NCBI RefSeq assembly: GCF_038593265.1
Contig: NZ_CP151979.1
Coordinates: forward strand, 3,169,001 to 3,233,000
Reading direction: 5' to 3'
DNA length: 64,000 bases
DNA from: Ureibacillus sp. FSL W7-1570
GTDB lineage: Bacteria; Bacillota; Bacilli; Bacillales_A; Planococcaceae
The position numbers were made by a program, and so were the translations under genes. The notes under the pieces were generated by a model. The model made no database searches. It was given only the letters and a program-made list of their open reading frames with translations, and was not told the DNA's origin. Positions 15,945 to 24,676 of the stretch are shown in pieces (position 1 is the stretch's first letter; each line of letters begins with the position of its first letter).

Positions 15945-16019
15945 AACATCATTCGTCAATTTTTCTTGTAAGTTATTTAGGAAAATGGTAGTTTAATTGT
16001 ATTTAGGAGGTCGAATGAA

Positions 16020-17195
16020 ATGTTTCAACCAACGACGTTAAACGAAAGAATCCATACCCTCGATATTATGCGGGGAGTGAGTCTGCTCGGCATTTTGCTT
16101 GTCAACATGTTCGCCTTTTCCCAACCGCTTCCCCATGTCCATGATTTGAACAGTTGGTTCACGGACATTCATGATCAACTGAACTATCAATTGCTTGATA
16201 TATATGTGCAAGGAAGCTTTTATCCTTTGTTTTCCATGCTGTTCGGCTACGGCTTGGCGATGCAGTACATGAAAGCGGAACGGACGGGGACGAATTTTTA
16301 TCCGTTTGCATTGAAGCGCCTCCTTGTGCTGCTCATCATCGGTTTGCTGCATGCCTTTCTCCTTTGGTGGGGCGACATCATTACGATGTATGCGGTTTGC
16401 GGCTTTTTTCTGATTTTGCTGCTGAGATTGAATAGCGGCTGGATGCTTTCCATTGCATTGGTTTTGAATGGACTTTTCCATACATTGATCATTTCCGTTT
16501 ATGCGATGGCGGAGATTGCCAATGATGAGTATGAAACGTTTGTCGATATAAGTGCGATAGAAGATGCCATTACTGCCTACGGAATCGGGACATGGAAAGA
16601 TGCATTCATGCAGCGCCTAAATGATTTGGCGATCCAAATGTCTCCGTCAATGTGGATCAGTGCCATGTTTACAATCCTTCCATATATGTTGGTCGGAGCG
16701 GCAGCGGCAAAATGGCGCCTGGTGGAAAGGGCAAAAGAGTTGAAAGGGAGATGGATTATCCTTGCCATTGTTTGCATTGCGGGGGGGCTGTTTTTAAAAA
16801 GCTATCCATTCCATACAACGCGGACTTACTTATGGGAATATGTCCGGGTTTATATGGGAGGACCGATTGTCGCAATCGGATATGCATCAGCCATTGTGCT
16901 CCTTTGCCTCATCCCATTCCTTCCGAAGCTGTTAAGCCCGATCGCCAAAGCGGGCCGCATGTCCTTGACCCTTTATCTCATGCAGTCCGTCATTTGTACG
17001 TTGTTGTTCTACAATTACGGTTTCGGCCTTTACGGCAAAGTGGATGTCTTGATGGGAATAGTGATTGCCATCAGCATTTATGTGATTCAAGCCGCCTTTG
17101 CCGAGCTATGGTTCATCAAGTTCCGGCAAGGTCCGCTGGAATACCTGGTCAAACGGATGACGTACGGAAAAACGTTAAAGAAAATGGAGCAATAA
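16020..17195 (+). CDS. DUF418 (YeiB-like) membrane protein
   Basis: 391 residues with eight or more membrane segments. It begins with the family motif LDIMRGVSLLGILLVNMFAF and ends with the DUF418 region AGRMSLTLYLMQSVICTLLFYNYGFGLYG. The function is not established; membrane transport or acyl transfer have been suggested for relatives. ATG 16020 follows TAGGAGG (16004-16010). No clear terminator separates it from yisK. Confidence 0.88.
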   Translation: MFQPTTLNERIHTLDIMRGVSLLGILLVNMFAFSQPLPHVHDLNSWFTDIHDQLNYQLLDIYVQGSFYPLFSMLFGYGLAMQYMKAERTGTNFYPFALKRLLVLLIIGLLHAFLLWWGDIITMYAVCGFFLILLLRLNSGWMLSIALVLNGLFHTLIISVYAMAEIANDEYETFVDISAIEDAITAYGIGTWKDAFMQRLNDLAIQMSPSMWISAMFTILPYMLVGAAAAKWRLVERAKELKGRWIILAIVCIAGGLFLKSYPFHTTRTYLWEYVRVYMGGPIVAIGYASAIVLLCLIPFLPKLLSPIAKAGRMSLTLYLMQSVICTLLFYNYGFGLYGKVDVLMGIVIAISIYVIQAAFAELWFIKFRQGPLEYLVKRMTYGKTLKKMEQ

Positions 17196-17265
17196 CGGTT
17201 TTTTTCATGTAATATTGTTATTAATATCAGAAATAATTTGTGAAAATGAAAAGGGGCTATTACTG

Positions 17266-18168
17266 ATGAAGATTCTATCCTTTAAATTCAATAATCAATT
17301 GAAATTTGGTCCAAAAGTAAAAAAAGAAGAAGCCGTTTGGGATGTATTGGCGATCCAGGAATCCCTTGAAGTGTTCCCATCCTTCCCGCAAACGATTATT
17401 GAAGGCGTTGCATTGGGGTATGATTTTGTTGAGAAGATCCGCAGATTGGTGGAAGTAGCGGAAAAATCGGACAAACCGGATAAGTTCAAATTATCTTTCA
17501 GCGAGATTGAATGGTTGTCGCCGATCCCAAGAACCCCAAAAAATATTATTTGTGTGGCGAAAAACTATGATGAACATGCAAAGGAAATGGGAGGAGAAGC
17601 TGCTCCGTCCGATTTGGTCATTTTCACAAAATCTCCGACAGCGATTGCGGCTGACAATCAAGTGCTGTCCATCCATGCGGACAAAACCGACTCCCTTGAC
17701 TACGAAGGGGAGCTGGCGGTGATCATCGGAAAAGTTGGCAGAAACATTCCTGTCAATTTGGCCTATGATTATATTTTCGGCTATACGATCGCCAATGATC
17801 TAACAGCCCGTGATGTTCAAGAGCGCCATCAACAATATTTCTTGGGCAAAAGTTTGGATGCCACTTGTCCGATGGGCCCTTACATTGTGACGAAAGATGA
17901 AATTCCAAATCCTCAAAATTTGACGATCGTGACAAAGGTGAATGGGGAAGTGCGGCAAAACGGAAATACCGCAGATATGATGTTCCCGATCGATCGATTG
18001 ATTTCCATCATCTCCCATCATGTAACGTTGGAGCCCGGCGATGTCATTTTGACGGGAACGCCTAAAGGGGTCGGGAAAGGCATGAATCCTCCACAGTTCT
18101 TAAAATCCGGGGATGTCGTGAGAATCTCCATTGAAGGAATCGGTACATTGACAAACCGTTTTGAATAA
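17266..18168 (+). CDS. yisK: Fumarylacetoacetate hydrolase-family protein YisK
   Basis: 300 residues. An N-terminal domain of about 90 residues precedes a FAH fold (GYTIANDLTARDVQERHQQY; metal-binding acidic residues in LDYEGELAVIIGK). B. subtilis YisK is reported to be an oxaloacetate decarboxylase that also binds the Mbl cytoskeleton. ATG 17266 follows AAAAGGGG and gives the normal length; an in-frame TTG at 17215 has no ribosome site. YisL lies next, as in B. subtilis. Confidence 0.9.
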   Translation: MKILSFKFNNQLKFGPKVKKEEAVWDVLAIQESLEVFPSFPQTIIEGVALGYDFVEKIRRLVEVAEKSDKPDKFKLSFSEIEWLSPIPRTPKNIICVAKNYDEHAKEMGGEAAPSDLVIFTKSPTAIAADNQVLSIHADKTDSLDYEGELAVIIGKVGRNIPVNLAYDYIFGYTIANDLTARDVQERHQQYFLGKSLDATCPMGPYIVTKDEIPNPQNLTIVTKVNGEVRQNGNTADMMFPIDRLISIISHHVTLEPGDVILTGTPKGVGKGMNPPQFLKSGDVVRISIEGIGTLTNRFE

Positions 18169-18198
18169 AAACCTTTGAATTTCGCTAAAATGAATGGA

Positions 18199-18251
18199 AG
18201 AACCCGTAAATATTTGCAATAAAATGCAAAAAACTTGCGGGTTCTTTTTTC
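18199..18251 (+). terminator. Terminator after yisK
   Basis: AGAACCCG... at 18199-18209 pairs with the arm at 18235-18245, followed by a run of Ts. Confidence 0.85.
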
Positions 18252-18360
18252 TATATATTAAAATGACTTCCAAGTAATAAAGGTTATTATATTTGAATTA
18301 AACTAAATCCCATGATAGCATGGACAATGAATGAAAAATGAACAAGAGGTGGGGGAATTA

Positions 18361-18723
18361 ATGGATTTTTTGACTAGCTCGACACATTTACACATTACAA
18401 CATGGTTTATCGGAATCATCTTGTTCCTTATTGGGGCCATCAAACCGAATAAAGGGTTACATATGGCATTGCGTCTATTCTATATTTTAATCATTATCAC
18501 GGGCGGCGCTTTATTTATTGAAGCGATGGATTACGGCCAAGGCATGAACTATGGCATTAAGCTCATTTTGGGCATTTTGGTGATCAGTATGATGGAAATG
18601 GTGCTTGTCCGCCAATCCAAAGGGAAATCAGCGACTGCATTTTGGATTCTGTTTGTCATTTTCTTATTTTTGACATTATTCTACGGATTCAAATTGCCGA
18701 TGGGTATGAACTTCTTAGCTTAA
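18361..18723 (+). CDS. yisL: YisL-family (DUF1516) membrane protein
   Basis: 120 residues with four membrane segments; starts MDFLTSSTHLHITTW, the YisL signature. Function unknown. ATG 18361 follows GAGGTGGGGGAA. Its position after yisK is conserved. Confidence 0.88.
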   Translation: MDFLTSSTHLHITTWFIGIILFLIGAIKPNKGLHMALRLFYILIIITGGALFIEAMDYGQGMNYGIKLILGILVISMMEMVLVRQSKGKSATAFWILFVIFLFLTLFYGFKLPMGMNFLA

Positions 18724-18735
18724 ATGATTGCGATT

Positions 18736-18769
18736 CGCAAAGTACAAGGATTCGTACTTTGCGTTTTTT
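18736..18769 (+). terminator. Terminator after yisL
   Basis: A perfect 10-base stem, CGCAAAGTAC (18736-18745) with GTACTTTGCG (18754-18763), then six Ts. Confidence 0.92.
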
Positions 18770-18871
18770 ATTGGAATCTTTGGTCGTTGCGCAAGAAATG
18801 GAGCGGAAGTAATAGAAATTCTTTCTCAATTCCTCTAAAATGAATTCAACTGAGAAAATGAAGGGGAATGG

Positions 18872-19021
18872 ATGATGATTTCAATTTTCATGCTTGTATT
18901 CACCGCTTGTCTGATGATATTTTTCCTTGTTTTCGCTTTTTTGCAAAACCCGGTGCATACCCGGAAGGAAGAATGGGATGAATTGGAGGAAGAGCAAGGC
19001 GGGCACGGGAAATGGCCGTGA
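18872..19021 (+). CDS. Small single-pass membrane protein, 49 residues
   Basis: Opens MMISIFMLVFTACLMIF and has one strongly hydrophobic helix (about residues 3-24), then a charged tail rich in Glu and Lys. ATG 18872 is preceded by GAAGGGGAATGG. It stands alone between the yisL terminator and the GH13 gene. I do not recognise a family. The Cys after the hydrophobic stretch does not fit a lipobox well. Confidence 0.6.
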   Translation: MMISIFMLVFTACLMIFFLVFAFLQNPVHTRKEEWDELEEEQGGHGKWP

Positions 19022-19143
19022 TTATTTGTCACAATTTCGTCAAATATACAAGCGGAATTGATAAAACTTTTCTTAATTATGGAGAGCAGTGTCCACATTT
19101 TTGGTAAAATGTCGTTGATTGGTTTTAAAGGAGAGGGATTATT

Positions 19144-20607
19144 TTGAAACTCAAGAAATGGATTCAAACGACAGCAATGGCTACATTATTGTCCGCAAGT
19201 TTATTGACGCCAGTAGCAAGCGCGGAAGAGAAGCGCTCAATTGCTGATGAAAGTATATACGATGTATTGGTTGACCGGTATTTTAACGCCACGAACAGCA
19301 ATGATGACAGCTCAAAAACCGATCCGAAAGATGTAGAGAAGTTTGCCGGAGGGGATTTCCAAGGAATCATAGATAAATTTTCCCAAATCAAAGATATGGG
19401 ATTTTCCATCCTTTCCCTTGGACCGGTCTTTGCAACGGAAACTTATAATGGTTCATCAGTGACAAGCTACCGTGAAATAGAGCCAAACTTTGGCACGGAA
19501 GATGAATTCAAGAAGTTGATCCAATTCGTGAAAGACAATGACATGTCCGTCATGGTGGATTTCCCGCTTTCCAATGTGAGCGAAAATCATGAGTGGGCGA
19601 AGGATCCATCCAAAGCTTCCTGGATTTTGGAGAAAGCGGATGGAAAAGTTCGCTGGGATTTGGATAATGAAGAAGTGCAACAGGCATTGATTGATGCGGT
19701 TGTTGATTTCATTTCCACATACGGGTTGGATGGTGTCCGCTTAACCAATATGGAAGATGCGGATACAGACTTTTTGAACGAAATGATTGATGCCATCAAA
19801 TCCATCGATGAGTCGATTTATGTGATTTCCAACAGTGAAAGCGATGCACATTTTGATGCGGAATATTTCAATGAAGTGAGCGATATTTTCCGTTATGCAT
19901 TCAAAAATGTGGATGAAGATACGGCGGATTTAATGAAATATTTCAATGCGTTCGCCAAGGGGGAAACGGACATCCCTGCGCAAATCATGATCGATCATAT
20001 CAATTCGGACCGCTTTTTATATACTGCTGAAATTTATCCTCCGACACGGTTGAAAATGGTATTGGGTGCGGCTTTGCTTTTGCCGGGGGTACCTGTCATG
20101 CAGTATGGTACGGAAATCGCCATGAACGGAAAGGCGGGTCCGGAAGCGCACCAACTTTATAATTTTAAAACGGATACAGAACTGAAAGGTTATATTGAAG
20201 ATATTCAAACATTGAGAAATCAATCGGAAACCCTCCGCAAAGGGGAGTTTAATCTCATTCAGAACGACAGTGGATTAATCGTTTTCCAACGCAAATCCGA
20301 TAAAGAAAATTGGATCGTCGTCATCAACAATACAAGCGAAAGAAAGAAAATTGAAATTCCAAAAGAGCTGGTCGGCGAGAATAAAGAAATCCGAGGAACT
20401 TTGGAAGGTGAAATATTCCGCGAAGGCGATGACGGCATTTTCAGAATTGTCCAGGATCGGGAAGTTGTTGAAATTTATCAAGTGATTGATGAACAAGGCA
20501 TCAATATTTCATATATCATCGCATTGGCATTTGTTTATATTATTTTCATCGCCTTTGTCGTGGCATTGATCAAACGGGGAAAACGTCAACGCTCTAAAGC
20601 GGAATAA
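19144..20607 (+). CDS. Membrane-anchored GH13-like protein lacking catalytic residues
   Basis: 487 residues: signal peptide (cut near VASA), alpha-amylase-type (beta/alpha)8 barrel, C-terminal beta domain, one transmembrane helix (about 458-478) and a basic tail. The layout resembles the membrane-anchored bacillar alpha-amylases I associate with GH13_45. The family motifs are degenerate: the nucleophile Asp region reads GVRLTN (Thr201), the acid/base region reads YVISNSES with no Glu in register, and the usual NHD reads HIN (Asn287). Region I also lacks its His. The fold markers DRYF and QYGTEIAMNG remain. It is probably a non-catalytic glycan-binding or structural protein. The start is TTG 19144 with AAAGGAGAGGG. 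Confidence 0.8.
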   Translation: MKLKKWIQTTAMATLLSASLLTPVASAEEKRSIADESIYDVLVDRYFNATNSNDDSSKTDPKDVEKFAGGDFQGIIDKFSQIKDMGFSILSLGPVFATETYNGSSVTSYREIEPNFGTEDEFKKLIQFVKDNDMSVMVDFPLSNVSENHEWAKDPSKASWILEKADGKVRWDLDNEEVQQALIDAVVDFISTYGLDGVRLTNMEDADTDFLNEMIDAIKSIDESIYVISNSESDAHFDAEYFNEVSDIFRYAFKNVDEDTADLMKYFNAFAKGETDIPAQIMIDHINSDRFLYTAEIYPPTRLKMVLGAALLLPGVPVMQYGTEIAMNGKAGPEAHQLYNFKTDTELKGYIEDIQTLRNQSETLRKGEFNLIQNDSGLIVFQRKSDKENWIVVINNTSERKKIEIPKELVGENKEIRGTLEGEIFREGDDGIFRIVQDREVVEIYQVIDEQGINISYIIALAFVYIIFIAFVVALIKRGKRQRSKAE

Positions 20608-20616
20608 TTGAAATGA

Positions 20617-20660
20617 AATAAAACAGCGAAATCCAAATGGTTGGGTTTTCGCTGTTTTAT
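20617..20660 (+). terminator. Terminator after GH13-like gene
   Basis: ATAAAACAGCGAAA (20617-20631 region) pairs with TTTCGCTGTTTTAT (20647-20660), followed by a T-rich tail. Bases 20661-20824 hold no supported gene; they are the leader of the transporter operon. Confidence 0.85.
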
Positions 20661-20824
20661 TTTTTCCGGAAAAGATGCTTTTGTATTAGGGTGGAAAAAT
20701 CTGGTGTGTTTAGGGGGATGGCCATTCAATTTTCCCCTTGTAACCGGTTGCCCAAGTTAATGATTTTCCACTTCGATTCATACAATTCATTAACATCGAT
20801 TGCAAGGGAAAGGGGAATTTCCCA

Positions 20825-21823
20825 ATGGACTTGTTGGCCGTCCGAAATTTGCATGTCGGATTCCGGATAAATGACGCATTTTACGATGCGGTGGATGGGG
20901 TTTCCTTCACGTTAAAAAACAACGAAATTCTTGCCATCGTCGGGGAGTCTGGCTGCGGGAAAAGCACCCTGGCCACTTCCATCATCGGGCTCCATCACGG
21001 GCGGAATGTGCGGGTGACGGGAGAAATCCTTTACGGGGAGCGCAATCTGTTGGAATTGTCCGAAGAGGAAATGGACCATATCCGTGGGGCGGAAATCGCG
21101 ATGATTTTCCAGGATCCTTTGTCCGCTTTGAATCCGTTGATGCGAATTGGCGATCAAATCGAAGAAGCGTTGACCTATCATACGGAATTGTCAAAAGTGG
21201 AACGGGAAGAGAGAGTTTTGCAATTGTTGAAGCAAGTCGGCATCCATCGGCCGGAACAGACGGCCAGACAATTTCCCCACCAGCTGTCCGGGGGAATGCG
21301 GCAGCGGGTGATGATTGCGATCGCCATCTCTTGCAAACCGAAAATCATCATTGCCGATGAACCGACAACTGCTTTGGATGTCACGATTCAGGCACAAATA
21401 TTGGATTTGTTGAAGGAGCTGCAAAAAGAAACCGGTGCAGGCATTATTTTAATCACCCATGATTTGGGGGTGGTTGCGGAAATGGCCGACCGGGTGATGG
21501 TGATGTATGCGGGAGAAATCATTGAAGAAGCGCCGGTGCAGAAGTTGTTCTCCAATCCGAGACATCCATATACAAGATTATTATTCCACTCCATGCCGCA
21601 ACTTCACTCCACAAAGAAACGCCTCCATGTCATTGAAGGAATCGTACCCTCTTTGATCAATTTGCCGAGAAGCGGATGCAGATTTTCCCATCGCATTCCA
21701 TGGATTCCAAAAGAAGCCCATGAAGAACAGCCGAAGTTTCACAAAATTTCAAAGGACCATTTCGTCAAATGTACGTGCTGGAAGTATTTCCGTTTCCGTG
21801 ATGAAAAGGGGGAAGCTGATTGA
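20825..21823 (+). CDS. Oligopeptide ABC transporter ATPase, AppD/OppD type
   Basis: 332 residues. Walker A GESGCGKST (about 40-48), signature LSGGMRQRV, Walker B KIIIADEPTTALD, and the C-terminal oligopeptide-transporter extension with a Cys pair near the end (KCTCWKYF). It powers uptake by the permeases encoded downstream. First gene of a five-gene operon. The ribosome site GGGGAATTT before ATG 20825 is modest. Its stop overlaps the next start. Confidence 0.93.
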   Translation: MDLLAVRNLHVGFRINDAFYDAVDGVSFTLKNNEILAIVGESGCGKSTLATSIIGLHHGRNVRVTGEILYGERNLLELSEEEMDHIRGAEIAMIFQDPLSALNPLMRIGDQIEEALTYHTELSKVEREERVLQLLKQVGIHRPEQTARQFPHQLSGGMRQRVMIAIAISCKPKIIIADEPTTALDVTIQAQILDLLKELQKETGAGIILITHDLGVVAEMADRVMVMYAGEIIEEAPVQKLFSNPRHPYTRLLFHSMPQLHSTKKRLHVIEGIVPSLINLPRSGCRFSHRIPWIPKEAHEEQPKFHKISKDHFVKCTCWKYFRFRDEKGEAD

Positions 21824-22764
21824 GCTTCATGCAAGTCGTTGATTTAAAAGTGCATTATCCGATCCGTGGGGGATTTTTTAATTCCGTCATCGATTGGGTG
21901 TATGCGGTGGACGGGATTGATATGGAGTTTGAACAGGGAAAAACGTACGGGCTTGTGGGGGAGTCGGGCTGCGGGAAGTCGACGACGGGAAAAGCGCTGA
22001 TCGGCCTTGAGAAAATTACATCAGGAAAAATCCTTTTTGAAGGGGAAGATGTGACGAAGGATCGGAAATCGCGCACCTCCCATTTTCACCGGGAAGTGCA
22101 GATGATTTTCCAGGATTCCCATTCCAGCTTAAATCCGAGAAAACGGATCGCGGATATCCTTGCAGAACCGATCCGGAATTTTTTGCATTTGCCGCCAAGG
22201 GAAGAAATGAAGAAAATCGATGAACTCCTTGAAATTGTGGGGATGCCCGCCGATTCGAAAGAGAAATACCCGCACGAATTTTCAGGAGGGCAAAAGCAGC
22301 GCATCAATATCGCACGGGCCCTTGCCACGAACCCGAAACTGATCATTGCCGATGAGCCGGTTTCCGCCCTTGATCTATCCGTACAAGCACAAGTGTTAAA
22401 TTTTATGAAAGATGTGCAGAAGGAATTCGGATTGACCTATTTGTTCATCTCCCACGATTTAGGGGTCGTAAAGCATATGTGCGACTATATTTACATCATG
22501 TATAAAGGAAGGTTTGTGGAATGCGGCACGAAGGAGGATATATACGAAAATCCGAAACATCTATACACCAAACGGCTACTTTCATCCATACCGGCATCAA
22601 CACCGGTCGGAAGGGAAAAACGGAAATCCGCCCGACAAGCCTTTGAAAAAGTGTATGAAAAGCATATCCATAAAGCCTTTGATGAAAATGGACGAGTGTA
22701 TGACCTGATTCCCCTTTCGGATACCCATTACGTTTCCGCTTCAAGCAAAAAAGAAATTGTATGA
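21820..22764 (+). CDS. Oligopeptide ABC transporter ATPase, AppF/OppF type
   Basis: 314 residues; Walker A GESGCGKST, signature FSGGQKQRI, Walker B KLIIADEPVSALD, C-terminal oligo_HPY extension. TTG 21820 overlaps the previous TGA and follows AAAGGGGGA; ATG 21829 is the alternative. It forms the ATPase heterodimer with the preceding gene product. Confidence 0.93.
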   Translation: MSFMQVVDLKVHYPIRGGFFNSVIDWVYAVDGIDMEFEQGKTYGLVGESGCGKSTTGKALIGLEKITSGKILFEGEDVTKDRKSRTSHFHREVQMIFQDSHSSLNPRKRIADILAEPIRNFLHLPPREEMKKIDELLEIVGMPADSKEKYPHEFSGGQKQRINIARALATNPKLIIADEPVSALDLSVQAQVLNFMKDVQKEFGLTYLFISHDLGVVKHMCDYIYIMYKGRFVECGTKEDIYENPKHLYTKRLLSSIPASTPVGREKRKSARQAFEKVYEKHIHKAFDENGRVYDLIPLSDTHYVSASSKKEIV

Positions 22765-22798
22765 GTATGGAATTTCATATTCAAGGGAGGTCGGGACA

Positions 22799-23761
22799 AT
22801 GTGGAAAACGATTATAAGGCGTCTCCTCCTGATGATTCCCCAATTGATTGCACTGAGCATCCTCGTGTTTGGGATGGCGAAGATGATGCCGGGGGACCCG
22901 TTCACTGGCATGATTACGCCGGAAACGGATCCTGCGCGGATTGAAGAATTGAAGGAAGAATTGGGATTGAACGATCCGTTGCCGGTGCAATACATCCGGT
23001 GGGTGAAAAATGCGCTGCAGGGGGATTTCGGCAAGAGCTACACCTTTCAGCGGGATGTGGCTTCCCTCATTGGAGAGCGGGCGTTGAACACTTTTTGGCT
23101 GTCTTTTGTCAGCGTCATTTTATTGTATCTGATCGCCATTCCATTGGGGATTTTGGCGGGAAGGTACCAACAATCGAGGTTGGATAAAACCATCGTGTTC
23201 TACAGTTTCATCACTTATGCCATTCCGACTTTTGTGCTCTCCTTATTGTTTTTATATATTTTCGGCTACAAATTGCAATGGTTTCCGACGGGCGGAAGCG
23301 TGGACATTGAAGTGGAACCAGGAACCATCCAGTACATATGGAACCGATTCTACCACATCCTTCTGCCGGCAATCACCTATGCCATTTTAGGGACAACCGG
23401 GGTGATCCAGTATTTGCGTTCGGAAATTATCGATGCCAAAACGATGGATTATGTACGAACCGCAAGAAGCAAAGGGGTACCGATGAGAAAAATCTATACG
23501 AAGCATATTTTTAGAAATTCTTTTATTCCGATTGCCGCTTTTTTGGGGTTTACCATCACCGGGCTTTTGGGCGGCTCCATTTTTATTGAAACGATCTTCG
23601 GCTATCCGGGGATGGGACAGTTGTTTGTCAGTTCCATCGCTTCAAGGGATTACAGCGTCATTTGCGCTTTGGTCATGCTCTACGGATTTTTGACTTTGCT
23701 TGGAAGTCTGCTTTCCGACATCATTTTAAGCATTGTGGACCCCCGCATTCGTATTGAATAG
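22799..23761 (+). CDS. Oligopeptide ABC transporter permease, OppB type
   Basis: 320 residues and six membrane segments. The N-terminal motif MIPQLIALSILVFGMAKMMP and the ATPase-docking EAA loop (MDYVRTARSKGVPMRKIYTKH) are typical of OppB/DppB. ATG 22799 follows GGGAGG (22785-22790); an upstream in-frame ATG at 22757 overlaps the ATPase gene. Confidence 0.93.
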   Translation: MWKTIIRRLLLMIPQLIALSILVFGMAKMMPGDPFTGMITPETDPARIEELKEELGLNDPLPVQYIRWVKNALQGDFGKSYTFQRDVASLIGERALNTFWLSFVSVILLYLIAIPLGILAGRYQQSRLDKTIVFYSFITYAIPTFVLSLLFLYIFGYKLQWFPTGGSVDIEVEPGTIQYIWNRFYHILLPAITYAILGTTGVIQYLRSEIIDAKTMDYVRTARSKGVPMRKIYTKHIFRNSFIPIAAFLGFTITGLLGGSIFIETIFGYPGMGQLFVSSIASRDYSVICALVMLYGFLTLLGSLLSDIILSIVDPRIRIE

Positions 23762-23782
23762 AGAGGAGGGGATGGTGGAACA

Positions 23783-24676
23783 ATGAGACGTAAGAAGAAA
23801 CGATATCGCAAAAAAGGGCGCGCCCGAGGCATGCAGGTGGTATTTCGGGAGTTTCAGAAGGATCGTATCGCGATGACTTCATTCATGTTATTAGTATTCT
23901 TCATTCTATTTGTTTTTATTGCCTCTCTCTTCATCGATCAGGAGCAGTTGATGCGCATCAATTTGTATGACCGTTACAGTCCGCCGGGGGAAAAGTATTT
24001 GTTGGGTGCGGACCAGGGCGGCAAAGATATTTTAGGGCAGCTCATCATCGGGGCCAGAAACTCCATTTTCATCGCCCTTGCCATCACGCTGATCACCGGT
24101 TTGATCGGGATTGTTGTGGGGCTCATTTGCGGTTATTTCGGCGGCTGGGTCGATTATATCATCATGAGGATCATCGATTTCTTCGTTACGATTCCTTCAT
24201 TATTGTTCATCATCGTTTTTGTGACCCTTGTGCCAAAGTATTCGGTCACAACGTTCATTTTGATTATGAGCCTGTTTTTATGGACAGGGACGGCGAGGCT
24301 TGTCCGTTCAAAGGCGTTGTCCGAAAGCAAAAGGGATTATGTGAGCGCATCAAAAACGTTGGGAACGGGCGATTTTGCCATCATCCGGAGGGAAGTGGCG
24401 CCAAATTTAAGTTCTTTGTTGATTGTCGAGATGACGTTGAACTTTGCGGGAAACGTGGGGATTGAAACGGGTCTTTCTTATTTGGGATTCGGTCTGCCGC
24501 CAACCACCCCTTCATTGGGCACATTGGTGAGCTATGCGAACAATCCGGCCGTGTTGCAACAATATTGGTGGGTATGGCTTCCGGCATCCCTATTGATATT
24601 ATTCATGATGCTCGCCATCAACTATATCGGCCAAGCATTAAGGAGATCCGTGGATGTGAAGCAGCGGTTGGGCTAA
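23783..24676 (+). CDS. Oligopeptide ABC transporter permease, OppC type
   Basis: 297 residues with a basic N-terminal stretch, six membrane segments and an EAA loop (RDYVSASKTLGTGDFAIIRR). It forms the channel with the preceding permease. Strong ribosome site GAGGAGGGG before ATG 23783. Confidence 0.93.
   Translation: MRRKKKRYRKKGRARGMQVVFREFQKDRIAMTSFMLLVFFILFVFIASLFIDQEQLMRINLYDRYSPPGEKYLLGADQGGKDILGQLIIGARNSIFIALAITLITGLIGIVVGLICGYFGGWVDYIIMRIIDFFVTIPSLLFIIVFVTLVPKYSVTTFILIMSLFLWTGTARLVRSKALSESKRDYVSASKTLGTGDFAIIRREVAPNLSSLLIVEMTLNFAGNVGIETGLSYLGFGLPPTTPSLGTLVSYANNPAVLQQYWWVWLPASLLILFMMLAINYIGQALRRSVDVKQRLG

Follow-up and report, generated by a model that had tools for sequence, protein, structure and literature searches.

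The window analysed here, a stretch of 64,000 nucleotides from Ureibacillus sp. FSL W7-1570 (genome of 3.28 Mb, one contig), carries an open reading frame that starts with TTG at position 19144, has no internal stops and encodes a protein of 487 aa, hereafter P0001. Its closest named relatives are found in Ureibacillus terrenus (81% identity) and U. thermosphaericus (76% identity). The gene is preceded by those for a DUF418 membrane protein, an FAH-family protein and YisL (Table 1). Among 108 homologous genes, the called start was TTG in 51, GTG in 30 and ATG in 27, with a strong RBS ahead of most of them. Upstream of the start we noted a candidate extended -10 element, TGGTAAAAT, which may belong to the gene's own promoter; it was not singled out by the signal scan of the region. 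Some 60-75 bases further upstream lies the block TTGTCACAATTTCGTCAAA (positions 19026-19046), which is conserved in four Ureibacillus-type loci and is possibly a regulator site. A terminator-like hairpin with a conserved stem (18736-18763) follows yisL, so that the pseudo-amylase gene probably forms a transcription unit of its own, as the hairpins on both sides and the conserved block containing TGGTAAAAT also suggest. Between the two genes there is also a small open reading frame on the same strand (18873-19022, MISIFMLVFTACLMIFFLVFAFLQNPVHTRKEEWDELEEEQGGHGKWP), whose product would have one likely transmembrane helix and an acidic tail. It is preceded by an RBS-like GAAGGGG, and three Ureibacillus-type loci can be aligned to its region, L006 most closely. 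An Rfam search of positions 16000-24000 gave no matches.

Table 1. Features of the pseudo-amylase locus, in window coordinates
Feature	Positions	Strand	Basis
DUF418 polytopic membrane protein, conserved neighbour	16020..17195	+	Pfam, synteny
FAH-family gene in the yisK position, conserved neighbour	17215..18168	+	Pfam, synteny
yisL (DUF1516), conserved upstream neighbour	18331..18723	+	Pfam, synteny
Terminator-like hairpin 3' of yisL, stem conserved	18736..18763	+	scan and locus alignment
Candidate extended -10 TGGTAAAAT, P0001's own promoter	19102..19110	+	inferred; inside a block conserved in four Ureibacillus-type loci
RBS AAAGGAGAGGG and TTG start codon of P0001	19127..19146	+	sequence; TTG or GTG called in 81/108 homologous starts
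Membrane-anchored GH13 pseudoenzyme P0001, 487 aa	19144..20607	+	ORF, Pfam, alignment, AlphaFold, Foldseek
Signal peptide, residues 1-27 (VASA/EEK)	19144..19224	+	sequence
(beta/alpha)8 barrel with shortened domain B, residues 30-366	19231..20241	+	model, Foldseek, alignment
Calcium-site-like motif D44-N48-N53-D54...G69-D71	19273..19356	+	complete in 87/93 orthologues
N144 replacing region I His (TAA His122)	19573..19575	+	alignment
T201 replacing nucleophile Asp (TAA Asp206; GVRLTN)	19744..19746	+	alignment
N230 replacing acid/base Glu (TAA Glu230)	19831..19833	+	alignment
N287 replacing transition-state Asp (TAA Asp297; NHD to HIN)	20002..20004	+	alignment
C-domain Alpha-amylase_C_2, residues 367-450	20242..20493	+	Pfam, model, selection analysis
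C-terminal transmembrane helix and basic tail KRGKRQR	20506..20604	+	TM-like stretch in 93/93 orthologues
Inverted repeat then T-run, likely P0001 terminator	20620..20665	+	by inspection; absent from scan list

Pfam assigned the alpha-amylase catalytic domain to P0001 with 84 bits (cut-off 22), and Alpha-amylase_C_2 was also above its cut-off. The AlphaFold model, computed from 60 aligned sequences, reached a pLDDT of 88.3 and a pTM of 0.83, and its top ranks in Foldseek were 5a2c, 5a2a and 4e2o (TM 0.80-0.88, with 28-33% sequence identity in these matches). Pfam, the model and the Foldseek search thus all indicated a GH13 barrel followed by an alpha-amylase-type C-domain. The nearest solved structures are the GH13_45 amylases 5A2B and 5A2A from Anoxybacillus and 4E2O (GTA) from Geobacillus. 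With this group, which also includes 5A2C and BaqA, P0001 has in common the fold, the domain order, the signal peptide and a C-terminal transmembrane helix; residues 455-486 form one long helix in the model, hydrophobic to about residue 476 and basic after it, and the C-terminal aromatic region follows the shared consensus G.N..Y...VY..F..F. The N-terminal motif D44-N48-N53-D54...G69-D71 resembles the calcium site of related enzymes, and by homology P0001 may bind calcium.

The catalytic positions were placed by alignment to 5A2B and 4E2O, and the preliminary description was right that the four GH13 motifs are in place but changed: P0001 has T201, N230, N287 and N144 there. This placement goes beyond the alignment because the strand ends of the model and its superposition on 5a2a and 4e2o agree with it, the four residues sitting at the ends of strands beta4, beta5, beta7 and beta3, respectively, in blocks with a pLDDT of roughly 86-98. 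The Asp-Glu-Asp triad was complete in none of 93 orthologues, as against all 21 intact control relatives. No orthologue had a carboxylate at the nucleophile position (Thr in 76/93) or Glu at the acid/base position (Asn in 57/93), and the stabiliser position varied freely. The control set excludes L091 (genome G338 of family f33); this GH13_45 relative has His at the nucleophile (GYRLHAVNHA) but is intact otherwise, with Glu and Asp kept. Judged by its sequence, it is possibly a separate loss of catalysis. The earlier reading that everything else was intact proved too generous. The signal peptide, barrel, C-domain and C-terminal helix are indeed present; however, domain B lacks about 16 residues relative to GH13_45 enzymes, the signature LPDLx (CSR-V) is replaced by GKVRWD, and the Trp pair in helix alpha3 (WW in 18/21 intact relatives) has become DF and similar in the pseudoenzymes. 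The protein had also been called GH13_45-like, and this holds for its fold and nearest relatives but not for the signatures that define the subfamily.

The loss extends into the substrate cleft. Of the eleven residues that we take, from general knowledge of Taka-amylase (TAA), to make up subsites -1 and -2, ten are changed in P0001: His80 to N (D in most of the family), Tyr82 to S, Trp83 to S, His122 to N, Asp206 to T, Glu230 to N, His296 to I, Asp297 to N, Asp340 to G and Arg344 to H. Only TAA Arg204 (R199) is kept. The mean conservation percentile of the eleven positions was 55 in the pseudoenzymes vs 89 in the enzymes, and several of them drift (percentiles 8-38). A different set of residues has become fixed. 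D40, S91, G93, P141 and H336, new in P0001, are 98-100% fixed in the orthologues; position 102 is D in 95% of them and N in P0001; Tyr101 is kept in 99%, and Arg199 is Arg in 90% and otherwise Lys.

These data bear on the suggestion of the preliminary description that the protein binds sugar at the surface or serves a structural role. Binding of alpha-glucan by the old cleft is not supported, since His80, Tyr82, Trp83, His122, His296, Asp340 and Arg344 are all replaced and several of these positions drift freely; starch binding there appears unlikely from the sequence, and the structural or partner-binding half of the suggestion is the better one. A broader version, in which a remodelled cleft would bind but not cleave a polysaccharide of the wall or surface, draws on the retained barrel fold, on Tyr101 and Arg199 and on the fixed D40, S91, G93, P141 and H336 with a position 102 that is mostly D. 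It is doubtful all the same, because the -1/-2 platforms and their polar partners are gone, the drift just described affects several positions, and the pseudoenzyme is the sole GH13 in more than half of the genomes searched. The fixed residues could instead belong to a new catalytic activity rebuilt in the old pocket. In the model, D40, S91, G93, D139, P141 and D284, all nearly fixed, would lie at the pocket ends of beta1, beta2, beta3 and beta7, with H336 and usually D102, likewise nearly fixed, in the loops after those strands; D40 and D102 are carboxylates new relative to the enzymes. However, P0001 itself has N102, several of the conserved positions are within strands and may serve folding, and the neighbouring genes link no product or pathway, so that we regard such an activity as improbable. 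A wider proposal is that the old active-site end carries a new nearly fixed set (D40, S91, G93, usually D102, P141, R199, D284 and H336) that would bind a new ligand or catalyse a reaction unrelated to starch, the protein being a family-wide core envelope factor; this is rather unlikely in our judgement, though less so than a rebuilt enzyme.

The loss of catalytic residues is not confined to the genome of P0001 but is found across the Planococcaceae sample, a larger phenomenon than the preliminary description saw. Matches to P0001 were obtained in 197 of 200 sampled genomes of Planococcaceae. As the matches in G045, G080 and G107 are intact paralogues, the orthologue is present in about 194/200 genomes from 19 genera, a count made by match strength and not by reading each triad. 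Two genomes, G180 (its contig stops after yisL) and G107 (81% complete), were not scored as losses. Among the orthologues listed, only one had a stop within the match. The gene order addA-DUF418-yisK-yisL-pseudoGH13 was found in nearly all loci inspected, and this locus differs from that of the GH13_45 amylases. DUF418 was found in 194/200 sampled genomes. In four genomes of genus g10 (L156-L159: G070, G080, G045 and G028), both DUF418 and the pseudo-amylase were lost while the FAH gene and yisL between them were kept. A strict link to DUF418 was considered on account of this co-loss and rejected, for G027 retains a diverged pseudo-amylase copy without DUF418; since G100 in turn retains the pseudo-amylase without the FAH gene, no neighbour is strictly coupled to it. 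Nor did a link to the downstream Opp transporter stand, opp genes being next to the gene in some genera only. Second pseudo-amylase copies away from the usual locus were seen at L094 (G088) and L098 (G160). When 81 genomes were searched with PF00128, exactly one match was found in 44 of them (P0001's genome and 43 others), as counted by hand from the match table; all were weak, as expected of a pseudoenzyme. Being the sole GH13 in these 44, the protein there is no accessory to an active GH13.

Family f29 of the same class is informative on the ancestry of the lineage. Its three members (L076, L077 and L081) have a triad of S/E/K or S/E/L and occupy the same DUF418-yisK-yisL neighbourhood as in Planococcaceae (addA was seen only in the L076 locus), and P141, S146 and H336 are common to both groups. 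At one of the f29 loci, L210 (G470), yisL and the pseudo-amylase are separated by two desaturase-like genes and one squalene/phytoene-synthase-like gene, judged by eye to be of carotenoid type. In a tree built with the catalytic and subsite columns removed, the f29 and Planococcaceae pseudoenzymes grouped together with 100/100 support, their clade lying within the intact GH13_45-type enzymes, which indicates descent from the GH13_45 clade, given a root that is approximate and depends on the choice of outgroup. Intact paralogues within Planococcaceae (L127 and L135) grouped with the enzymes. As this sister family encodes partly dead proteins at the corresponding locus, the loss of catalysis is ancestral: most likely it happened once, before f29 and Planococcaceae split, and the Planococcaceae line most likely lost the acid/base residue later, along its long stem (about 1 change per site).

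Pairwise dN/dS, which had been proposed as a check, was 0.05-0.17 for the pseudoenzymes (24 pairs) and 0.03-0.07 for the intact enzymes (six pairs), and the gene is under purifying selection. With the dN of each domain divided by the dS of the gene (only five intact pairs), the barrel ratio was 0.088 in pseudoenzymes vs 0.032 in enzymes, the C-domain ratio was 0.082 in both, and that of the TM helix was 0.063 vs 0.059. The loss of catalysis has therefore relaxed the constraint on the barrel about 2.7-fold, still far from neutral, while the C-domain and anchor remain at the enzyme level. We had considered the relatively higher conservation of the TM helix and C-domain as a sign of a membrane partner and gave this up, as scaling dN by dS shows a relaxed barrel and a TM helix and C-domain that are unchanged. 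That the gene is a functionless relic in slow decay might be argued from the faster evolution of its barrel and its loss in the g10 genomes, but it is hardly credible for a gene that is held across 19 genera with an internal stop in a single listed orthologue, has its own RBS and a conserved upstream block, and shows a dN/dS around 0.09, well below 1 in every sampled pair. The earlier view that this is a pseudoenzyme rather than random decay is thus strongly supported by the family-wide fixation, the dN/dS values, the conserved locus and the confident fold. With its cleaving residues long gone, the protein almost certainly has some role at the cell surface other than that of an amylase.

Our preferred interpretation, to which we give a probability of about 0.6, is that P0001 derives from a GH13_45 amylase whose catalysis was lost ahead of the diversification of the Planococcaceae, and that it has been retained in the envelope as a scaffold or partner-binding protein without catalytic function. 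Its ancestor would have been a secreted, membrane-anchored GH13_45 alpha-amylase. P0001 itself would be exported by the signal peptide and anchored in the membrane by the C-terminal helix, so that the barrel and C-domain would face the cell wall, with bound calcium presumably keeping the barrel rigid; it would then bind a partner, either a protein of the membrane or wall or a polymer of the wall, and would not cut glucan. Partner binding of this kind would make it an assembly factor or scaffold, a role suggested by analogy to 4F2hc and rBAT, whose ectodomains also have the GH13 fold. We favour a scaffold over a lectin, a new enzyme or a weak amylase because the subsites are stripped and partly drifting and the C-domain and anchor are fully constrained. 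The anchor of 4F2hc and rBAT, the heavy chains of heteromeric amino-acid transporters, is of type II. As predicted for P0001, these transporter subunits have a membrane-anchored extracellular GH13-fold domain, and that of 4F2hc is without a catalytic site; they show that a barrel of this kind can work as part of a transporter (PMC8537225). However, they are animal proteins of unrelated origin with an N-terminal anchor instead of a signal peptide and a C-terminal anchor, and the likeness is one of analogy only.

Our search of one literature library found nothing on this protein, and no paper describing that the loss is fixed across the family, that the gene keeps a common locus, that a sister family is half dead or how selection acts on the domains. 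A related published case is BmaN1 from Bacillus megaterium, an amylase with an aberrant triad that was reported to be active (Sarian et al., 2017; PMC5347038). The BmaN1 group resembles P0001 in being related to GH13_45, in its aberrant triad and in having a TM helix at the C-terminus. However, BmaN1 keeps the acid/base Glu, carries Asp one residue past the nucleophile and has His in the stabiliser position, where P0001 has T-N, N and N; this Lys-Asp, Glu, His pattern, taken from the same source (PMC5347038) and outside our alignment, is absent from P0001. BmaN1 (K202-D203, E231, H294), for which displaced catalytic acids have been proposed, nevertheless makes one ask whether P0001 could likewise be a weak amylase with such acids (PMC5347038), the more so as an acid occurs at positions 229-232 in 91/93 orthologues (E232 in P0001) and next to the nucleophile position in 13/93. 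Against this, T201-N202 and N287 leave P0001 with neither an acid close to the nucleophile nor one at the stabiliser, the acid/base Glu is lost in 93/93 and the subsite histidines are gone as well, which makes residual amylase activity very improbable. A non-enzymatic function cannot be proven from sequence, as the reported activity of BmaN1 illustrates (PMC5347038). Sarian et al. (2017; PMC5347038) also mention seven relatives, 'Nos 28-34', with irregular substitution of the whole triad, nearer BaqA than BmaN1 and treated as intermediates. P0001, in which the whole triad is likewise substituted, probably belongs to their lineage, matched by description; the passages on them that we could consult give no organisms, locus, distribution, selection or ancestry (PMC5347038). 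P0001 is thus GH13 by fold and descent and not by chemistry, GH13_45 by descent and not by signatures, and not of BmaN1 type.

Bacterial GH13 pseudoenzymes have hardly been studied, and annotation pipelines likely label proteins such as P0001 as alpha-amylase in many genomes without any other GH13. The lineage offers a transition from enzyme to scaffold in which a half-way sister (triad S/E/K or L) is available for comparison. A protein that has lost its active site but keeps its anchor, calcium-site motif and C-domain, and whose gene stays at one locus throughout the family, suggests that common environmental bacteria have a surface function not yet recognised.
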